DNA of 64,000 nt from Candidatus Hinthialibacter antarcticus. GTDB taxonomy: Bacteria > Hinthialibacterota > Hinthialibacteria > Hinthialibacterales > Hinthialibacteraceae. The DNA lies in NCBI GenBank assembly GCA_030765645.1, contig JAVCCE010000007.1:62001-126000 (forward strand), in the 5' to 3' direction. Made by a program: the position numbers and the translations under genes. Shown here in pieces: positions 14,557 to 16,027 of the stretch. The notes below the pieces were generated by a model. That model worked only from the letters and a program-made list of their open reading frames with translations. It had not been told where the DNA came from and made no database searches. Position 1 is the stretch's first letter; each line of letters begins with the position of its first letter.

Positions 14557-15756
14557 TTACTTCAATTGTTTTTTGGCGTATTCAAATACGAATTTCTTGC
14601 CCATTGATTCTTCGACTTTTTTGAAGCGGTTGTAACCGGTTCCATAGGGACGGTCGCGGCGGTCTTCTAATTTTTCTAACGACATCGAGAAGCCTTTGTC
14701 CTTCAACAATTGCGCGGCGACCCACTGGGCGAAGCCTTCTTTTAACTCAATGGACTGCTTGGGCGGACAGTTTTCAGTCTGCCAGGCGTGGGCGTACTCA
14801 TGCGCGGCAGTTTCGTAAATCATCTCAATGGGAATGCCGTACAACAAAAACACATCCGCCTTACCGGCTTTGTAGCGATATAAACCCAACTCAGAACCGC
14901 TTAACGGACTGGCTTGGTTCAAGCCCTCTTTGGCGCGCCGCGCAGACGCAAACGAATTTGCATTCAGCGGCTTGATATTCAGCGTCAGCGGATGCGTCAC
15001 GTTCATGCCCAACCTCCGCTGCAAGTGTTCGGTCACTTCACGCCAAATTTTGCGGATGGTTTCTTCATCGGTGACGGCGCGTTCATGGCAGGTATTACAG
15101 ATTGCGCGACCATCGTCGAATTTCCAATAGGTCGAACCGACGGGAACGCCGCAAGTATAACAAGCGGGTTTGGTGCGTTTACATTTTTCGCAGAAGCGCC
15201 CTTCGGCGTGTTCAATTTCAAAATAGCGCCCCGTGATCGCCACGCCGCACGAATCGCAATGATGTAGTTTCGGCAGGCAATCAATACAGGCGCCCGACGC
15301 CAAGTCGATGCGGCTGCGCGGGGTAGGCCGGTTGCAAACTTTGCATTTGGGTGCGCGGGAATAGCAGCTGGCGCAATAAAACTGCTCTGCGTTCGGCTTG
15401 TTGGCTTCGCCCTCTTTCGTGGGTTCCGCGAACGTATAATACCGGCCTTGGATGCGCTTTTGACAGATTGTGCAATATTTGGCTTCGGCGGCGCAGGGGC
15501 GACACAGGCGTTCACCGCGTTGCAACAGAATGTCTTTATGAACATGAGGCAGTTTGCAGGCTTCGCACTTGGGATATTTTTTATCGCAATCCGAGCAAAC
15601 CACTAAACGCTTACTCGACGACTTATATACCATGTAGCGGCCTTGGATTTCTTCGCTACAAAAATGACAGGTCGTCGCAGAGAGCGCCCGTCGGCTTGCG
15701 GTCAGACCCAAACCAAAACAAAGCAATCGAAGAACAGCGCTGCGTCTTAAAATCAT
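14557..15756 (-). CDS. Secreted protein: twelve CxxC zinc-finger pairs plus DA1-like metallopeptidase
   Basis: The 399-residue product from ATG 15756 starts with a signal peptide (LRRSAVLRLLCFGLGLTAS..ALSA). Residues 30-223 hold twelve CxxC pairs in a regular array (C30/33, 54/57, 64/67, 85/88, 95/98, 128/131, 138/141, 157/160, 167/170, 189/192, 199/202, 220/223). Six residues separate every second pair, and GRY recurs after the first of the pairs. This implies up to six four-Cys zinc sites, LIM-like or zinc-ribbon-like. Residues about 240-399 match the DA1-like (PF12315-type) peptidase domain: AAHEYAHAWQ gives the HExxH zinc motif (H319, E320, H323) and LKEGFAQWVA supplies E340 as third ligand. 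In plants DA1 is a cytosolic ubiquitin-activated LIM-peptidase; here the protein is predicted exported. Substrate unknown. Confidence 0.8.
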   Translation of the reverse strand: MILRRSAVLRLLCFGLGLTASRRALSATTCHFCSEEIQGRYMVYKSSSKRLVVCSDCDKKYPKCEACKLPHVHKDILLQRGERLCRPCAAEAKYCTICQKRIQGRYYTFAEPTKEGEANKPNAEQFYCASCYSRAPKCKVCNRPTPRSRIDLASGACIDCLPKLHHCDSCGVAITGRYFEIEHAEGRFCEKCKRTKPACYTCGVPVGSTYWKFDDGRAICNTCHERAVTDEETIRKIWREVTEHLQRRLGMNVTHPLTLNIKPLNANSFASARRAKEGLNQASPLSGSELGLYRYKAGKADVFLLYGIPIEMIYETAAHEYAHAWQTENCPPKQSIELKEGFAQWVAAQLLKDKGFSMSLEKLEDRRDRPYGTGYNRFKKVEESMGKKFVFEYAKKQLK

Positions 15757-15903: not shown

Positions 15904-15993
15904 CCAGTATAACTGCATCCATAATAGGTCTTGCGCATCCACGCGCCCGTCTCCATTGATATCGGTGCGAGCAGAAAGAGACGGTGTGGGCGT
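15904..15993 (-). pseudogene. Dockerin type I-like relic
   Basis: The minus strand encodes TPTPSLSART followed by DINGDGRVDAQDLLWMQLYW, a Ca-binding EF-hand-like dockerin half repeat (D-x-N-x-D-G-x-V-D-x-x-D) with a TP-rich linker. It lies between the MerA-like stop codon and the DA1-like gene, in frame with the latter but upstream of its signal peptide, so it cannot be its dockerin. There is no start codon with a signal peptide for it. Most likely it is the tail of a lost secreted protein. Confidence 0.55.
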
Positions 15994-16027
15994 GACCGCG
16001 TGACGGAGGTTGAAAAAAGATGAAATT

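Follow-up and report, generated by a model that had tools for sequence, protein, structure and literature searches.

DA1 is a central regulator of organ size in plants, and it is not understood why its activity requires the LIM-like domain. Plant DA1 and DAR proteins (PF12315) are clan MA zinc peptidases with LIM and LIM-like fingers in front of the catalytic domain, and they carry ubiquitin-interacting motifs and are activated inside the cell by ubiquitylation. The active-site motif of DA1 is HEMMH-x15-EE, and C274Y in the DA1 LIM-like domain abolishes both DA1 ubiquitylation and peptidase activity (PMC5322733). The DA1 LIM region also binds the DA1 substrate WUS in yeast (PMC11143343). Bacterial relatives are already on record: a passage of Dong et al. 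2017 (PMC5322733), citing Burroughs et al. 2011, describes Roseiflexus proteins that have four CxxC pairs and are similar to DA1.

P0001 is the label we use for the product of a minus-strand open reading frame (15756..14557, 399 aa plus stop) in the window, by which we mean the whole 64,000-nucleotide stretch of DNA that was analysed. Judged from its sequence, P0001 is probably an exported relative of DA1, a zinc protease preceded by three paired zinc-finger units. Its ligand spacing is that of plant DA1/DAR, but unlike those proteins it has a signal-like N-terminus, no canonical LIM domain and no ubiquitin-interacting motif. The motif was absent among the Pfam matches of P0001 up to E=1 (it is short, and a profile test for it is weak alone), and the signal, fingers and peptidase leave no further segment of the protein to hold one. 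A search with one ubiquitin E2 family was silent, as was its control, and an exported protein would not meet cytosolic ubiquitylation. The DA1-like proteins of Chloroflexota (L036, L041 and L043, found by homology to P0001) have, as P0001 does, a LIM-like double finger directly before a HEYAH-x16-E peptidase, but unlike it they have a single LIM-like unit, or two in Anaerolineae, lack a signal peptide and have other gene neighbours. The features of the locus, each with the evidence for it, are:

14557..15756, minus strand: whole gene, 399 aa, with a signal-like N-terminus, three LIM-like double zinc-finger units and a DA1-like peptidase (sequence, alignment)
15673..15756, minus strand: signal-like N-terminus, residues 1-28, with one twin arginine in the n-region and another in the c-region; looks Tat-like on inspection (sequence; hydrophobic N-terminus conserved in homologues)
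15493..15669, minus strand: LIM-like unit 1, residues 30-88, CxxC pairs 1-4 (cysteine pattern, predicted structure, conservation)
15277..15474, minus strand: LIM-like unit 2, residues 95-160, CxxC pairs 5-8 (cysteine pattern, predicted structure, conservation)
15088..15258, minus strand: LIM-like unit 3, residues 167-223, CxxC pairs 9-12, retained in one-unit relatives (alignment, cysteine pattern)
14560..15084, minus strand: DA1-like gluzincin peptidase domain, residues 225-399 (Pfam match, relatives, alignment)
14788..14802, minus strand: HEYAH zinc-binding and catalytic motif, residues 319-323 (sequence, alignment)
14737..14739, minus strand: E340 in KEGFAQ, predicted third zinc ligand, invariant in the alignment (alignment)
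15913..15999, minus strand: dockerin-type tail, in frame upstream of the peptidase gene, the rest of its own gene missing (comparison with relatives)

Kinship of the peptidase domain to DA1

The first-pass annotation had described P0001 as a CxxC array followed by HEYAH and a KEGFAQ glutamate, and this layout is real, with 12 pairs, HEYAH at residues 319-323 and the glutamate at E340. Its assignment of the domain to the DA1-like peptidases was also supported. Scored against the Pfam DA1-like profile (PF12315), which has a curated cut-off of 25 bits, P0001 reaches 21.1 bits (E 2.3e-4) and so stays under the cut-off, while 30 of the 32 aligned relatives have a DA1-like match. Two of the relatives, L041 (27 bits) and L031 (26 bits), clear this cut-off and the LIM cut-off too, and further scores above it belong to L102 (27.4), L108 (29.5), L107 (35) and L106 (76.6), the last of which is reached by the P0001 family profile at E 1e-39. 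A sequence search of the PDB with P0001 gave no significant match, and the family profile found no DA1 chain there, returning M1 aminopeptidases and LIM proteins at weak E-values. Foldseek with the P0001 peptidase domain alone gave weak zincin matches (M61 and SprT-like), none of them with E <0.001. Neither of the two outcomes that the first-pass annotation had listed as counting against its reading was seen, though the relation to DA1 holds at the level of the family, where it is carried by sequence profiles and not by a structural match.

The HExxH-x16-E spacing is found in 66 of 70 homologues, and the HEYAH-x16-E of P0001 agrees with the HEMMH-x15-EE of DA1, whose second glutamate sits at x16. 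H319, E320, H323 and E340 are invariant in every aligned relative, which argues against the first half of a rival reading that we consider very unlikely, namely that the catalytic domain does not work as a peptidase, or else that translation starts upstream so that the protein is not exported.

The zinc-finger array

There are 26 cysteines in P0001, and 24 of them fall in 12 CxxC pairs that all lie ahead of the peptidase. The pairs form six CxxC-x15-29-CxxC fingers, with an inter-finger spacer of 6 residues in 5 of 5 cases. All 24 finger cysteines are invariant across nine 12-pair homologues, a pattern far beyond chance, and this result and the conserved HExxH-x16-E spacing bear out the earlier statement that the zinc ligands are intact. 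Odd-numbered fingers carry a GRY-type motif and even-numbered fingers a CxxCxxP-type motif, and because of this alternation we read the array as three copies of a two-finger unit. The likeness of unit 1 to units 2 and 3 was unmatched by cysteine-preserving shuffles (0 of 1000), and the likeness of unit 2 to unit 3 is weaker (8 of 1000).

In a canonical LIM domain a two-residue linker joins the two fingers, whereas the linker in the units of P0001 has six residues every time. The Pfam LIM profile (PF00412) has no match in P0001 up to E=1 and none in its genome; at E up to 0.01 it matches 18 of the 32 aligned relatives. Since P0001 lacks a Pfam LIM match and has these six-residue linkers, we call its units LIM-like and not canonical LIM. 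The full-length structure was predicted with a mean pLDDT of 93.4 and a pTM of 0.80, and the best PDB match of the predicted array in Foldseek is PINCH1 LIM4-LIM5 (7d2t; E 8.7e-4, probability 0.99), with low TM-scores that are due to the length of the array and the partial matches. The comparison of the finger region with LIM folds that had been proposed for this protein ended on LIM repeats. PINCH1 is like the P0001 array in structure but differs in being an animal cytosolic adaptor without a peptidase. Taken on cysteine pattern and predicted structure, the fingers of P0001 can be read as three two-finger LIM-like units.

Within the window's order, identity at non-cysteine positions is 34, 39, 47 and 60% for units 1, 2 and 3 and the catalytic core, respectively; among the units, conservation is highest in unit 3 and lowest in the outer two. 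The array is always colinear with the peptidase, and in P0001 unit 3 (167-223) directly precedes the peptidase (225-399). Given that conservation rises toward the peptidase, and that relatives with a single unit have kept unit 3, we infer a coupling between this unit and the active site. An inhibitory or sensory array, as the first-pass annotation had suggested, would keep the peptidase silent until its fingers lose zinc or have their thiols oxidised in the envelope and so open. It would also be consistent with the constant colinearity and the conservation of unit 3, and DA1 itself has been called a latent peptidase that relies on the LIM-like domain for its activity (PMC5322733). The same idea could draw on C330 (given as 14727-14729, minus strand), a lone cysteine 7 residues past HEYAH, at a position where 54 of 70 relatives have a cysteine. 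However, mutation of the DA1 finger abolishes activity rather than releasing it, which is the opposite of simple inhibition (PMC5322733), and cytoplasmic relatives with the same last unit are outside any oxidising compartment, so we regard such gating as unlikely.

It is also possible to see the array as a scaffold or anchor, in which the LIM-like units fix the peptidase to a surface or envelope protein and take no part in substrate choice, and for this speak the range of 0 to 4 units among relatives whose peptidases differ little, the low conservation of the outer units and the fact that the nearest fold match, PINCH1, is an adaptor. We hold this to be improbable, given that the LIM region of DA1 binds a substrate (PMC11143343) and that no gene for a conserved envelope partner came to light; the dockerin-tailed neighbour described below is limited to one family and has no intact copy here.

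Start codon, export and gene neighbourhood

P0001 has a hydrophobic N-terminal core that recurs in close homologues. In-frame stops lie 2 and 6 codons before the corresponding start in L020 and L005, respectively, which fixes the signal-bearing start in those two. The frame in the window stays open for 108 codons upstream of the start at 15756, which means that this start is inferred by homology, and there is no clear ribosome-binding site ahead of the chosen ATG. Both points would suit an upstream start and a protein that is not exported, but the open frame consists of the dockerin remnant and non-conserved sequence, and the stops in L020 and L005 are just ahead of the same start. The signal peptide and export put forward in the first-pass annotation are supported by homology, through the hydrophobic N-termini and the starts of these two relatives, and stand as predictions.

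In the window protein and in L003, a twin arginine precedes the hydrophobic core and another is near the likely cleavage site, and by inspection the P0001 leader appears to resemble a Sec-avoiding Tat signal. The genome of P0001 has a gene for TatC. Against a Tat reading, the leaders of most other relatives in the window's order look Sec-type. Signal-like N-termini occur in the window's class, in Acidobacteria, in L062 and in several other lineages, and are missing in the Chloroflexota forms.

The gene sits between a pyridine-nucleotide disulphide oxidoreductase gene and aroA-cmk; aroA and cmk are housekeeping neighbours conserved within the family and give no functional clue. Directly upstream of the peptidase gene in three relatives, G004, G005 and G002, lies a gene for an exported protein whose C-terminal domain is a dockerin. 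About 29 codons of a dockerin tail are left at this place in the window (15913-15999, in frame with the peptidase gene), and no intact copy of the dockerin-tailed neighbour was found in the window's genome. With ten dockerin matches in all in that genome, the position of the tail is unlikely to be accidental, and it is probably the remnant of a lost dockerin-tailed gene that is intact at the same place in G004, G005 and G002. The dockerin-tailed neighbour was considered as a substrate or partner of the peptidase and set aside, as it is absent from G000 and the rest of the order and lies ~15 kb off in G001.

A different setting is seen in Anaerolineae (L025, L026, L027, L029 and L067, e.g., L027:86-9604), where the gene for a cytoplasmic DA1-like protein with two units belongs to a conserved row, together with genes for a PP2C phosphatase, a Ser/Thr kinase, two VWA proteins and an FHA-ABC transporter protein that has a zinc ribbon. 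L029 begins at a contig edge and covers the downstream half of this row only.

Relatives and a proposed role

All nine genomes searched in its order have the gene (six from its own family, three from elsewhere in the order), indicating that it is maintained, and shorter or diverged forms occur in most of the class sampled. Matches were found in 31 of 386 genomes sampled across bacteria and archaea, and the record labels of the named relatives are Candidatus Omnitrophota, Acidobacteria, Chloroflexota and Bacillota. Relatives are predicted from their N-termini to be exported in some cases and cytoplasmic in others, and their unit number runs from 0 to 4:

0 units: L017, L018, L062
1 unit: Chloroflexales
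2 units: Anaerolineae; Acidobacteria L022, L023
3 units: the window's order
4 units: L024

Among the finger-less DA1-like peptidases, L018 (G005:C127) has an N-terminal membrane segment and L062 and L017 have signal-like N-termini.

Two further bacterial proteins, L106 (L106:1411-2457) and L107 (L107:1369-2427), share with P0001 a signal-like N-terminus, fingers and a DA1-like peptidase. They differ from it in having canonical LIM matches that pass the Pfam cut-off, at 70.4 and 66.9 bits, respectively, as well as the stronger DA1-like scores given above, and both are nearer to plant DA1 than the window protein is.

We favour, with about an even chance of being right, a role for P0001 as an exported DA1-like processing peptidase of the envelope or the extracellular space, with the LIM-like arm docking its substrate. 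The three tandem LIM-like double units, with six predicted zinc sites, would serve as an arm that binds the substrate, a protein or a peptide, and holds it out to the predicted C-terminal gluzincin site (H319, E320, H323 and E340). Unit 3 would be structurally coupled to the catalytic domain and required for its activity, and units 1 and 2 would extend the docking surface. Export here would probably follow the Tat route, and the fingers could then be zinc-loaded before they exit the cytoplasm. Several observations count against this proposal. The finger-less, signal-bearing L017 and L062 indicate that the peptidase can stand without fingers, and the many cytoplasmic relatives in Chloroflexota mean that the envelope is not the sole setting. 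P0001 alone is under the DA1 cut-off and without a LIM match, and the one exported neighbour that recurs is not intact anywhere in this genome.

The view of this design as isolated, taken in the first-pass annotation, was not supported. LIM-like fingers with a DA1-like peptidase are published for bacteria in the passage on Roseiflexus (PMC5322733), and exported versions occur in several lineages, so P0001 belongs to a known kind of protein, of which it is a longer and exported version. The present analysis adds a three-unit exported form conserved across an order, the series from 0 to 4 units, the exported canonical LIM-DA1 proteins L106 and L107, and the Anaerolineae signalling operon. A broader and rather doubtful possibility is that exported LIM-DA1 proteins are a widespread bacterial class of envelope processing enzymes in which unit number sets substrate reach, and that plant DA1 descended from them and came under ubiquitin control only afterwards. 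The relatives in bacteria, which have 0, 1, 2, 3 or 4 units and no ubiquitin control, would offer simple models for the role of the fingers, whether in substrate binding, as a switch or as an anchor. The exported three-unit form also raises the question of how a protein with six predicted zinc sites crosses the membrane intact.

Two relatives, L110 and L111, have eight CxxC pairs and a C-terminal region that aligns to the DA1 family without HExxH, and are possibly inactive. In the peptidase-domain tree, in which the deeper branches are long and unsure, the two-unit Acidobacteria proteins L022 and L023 fall inside the window's clade (100/89), a placement that suggests horizontal transfer and the loss of one unit.
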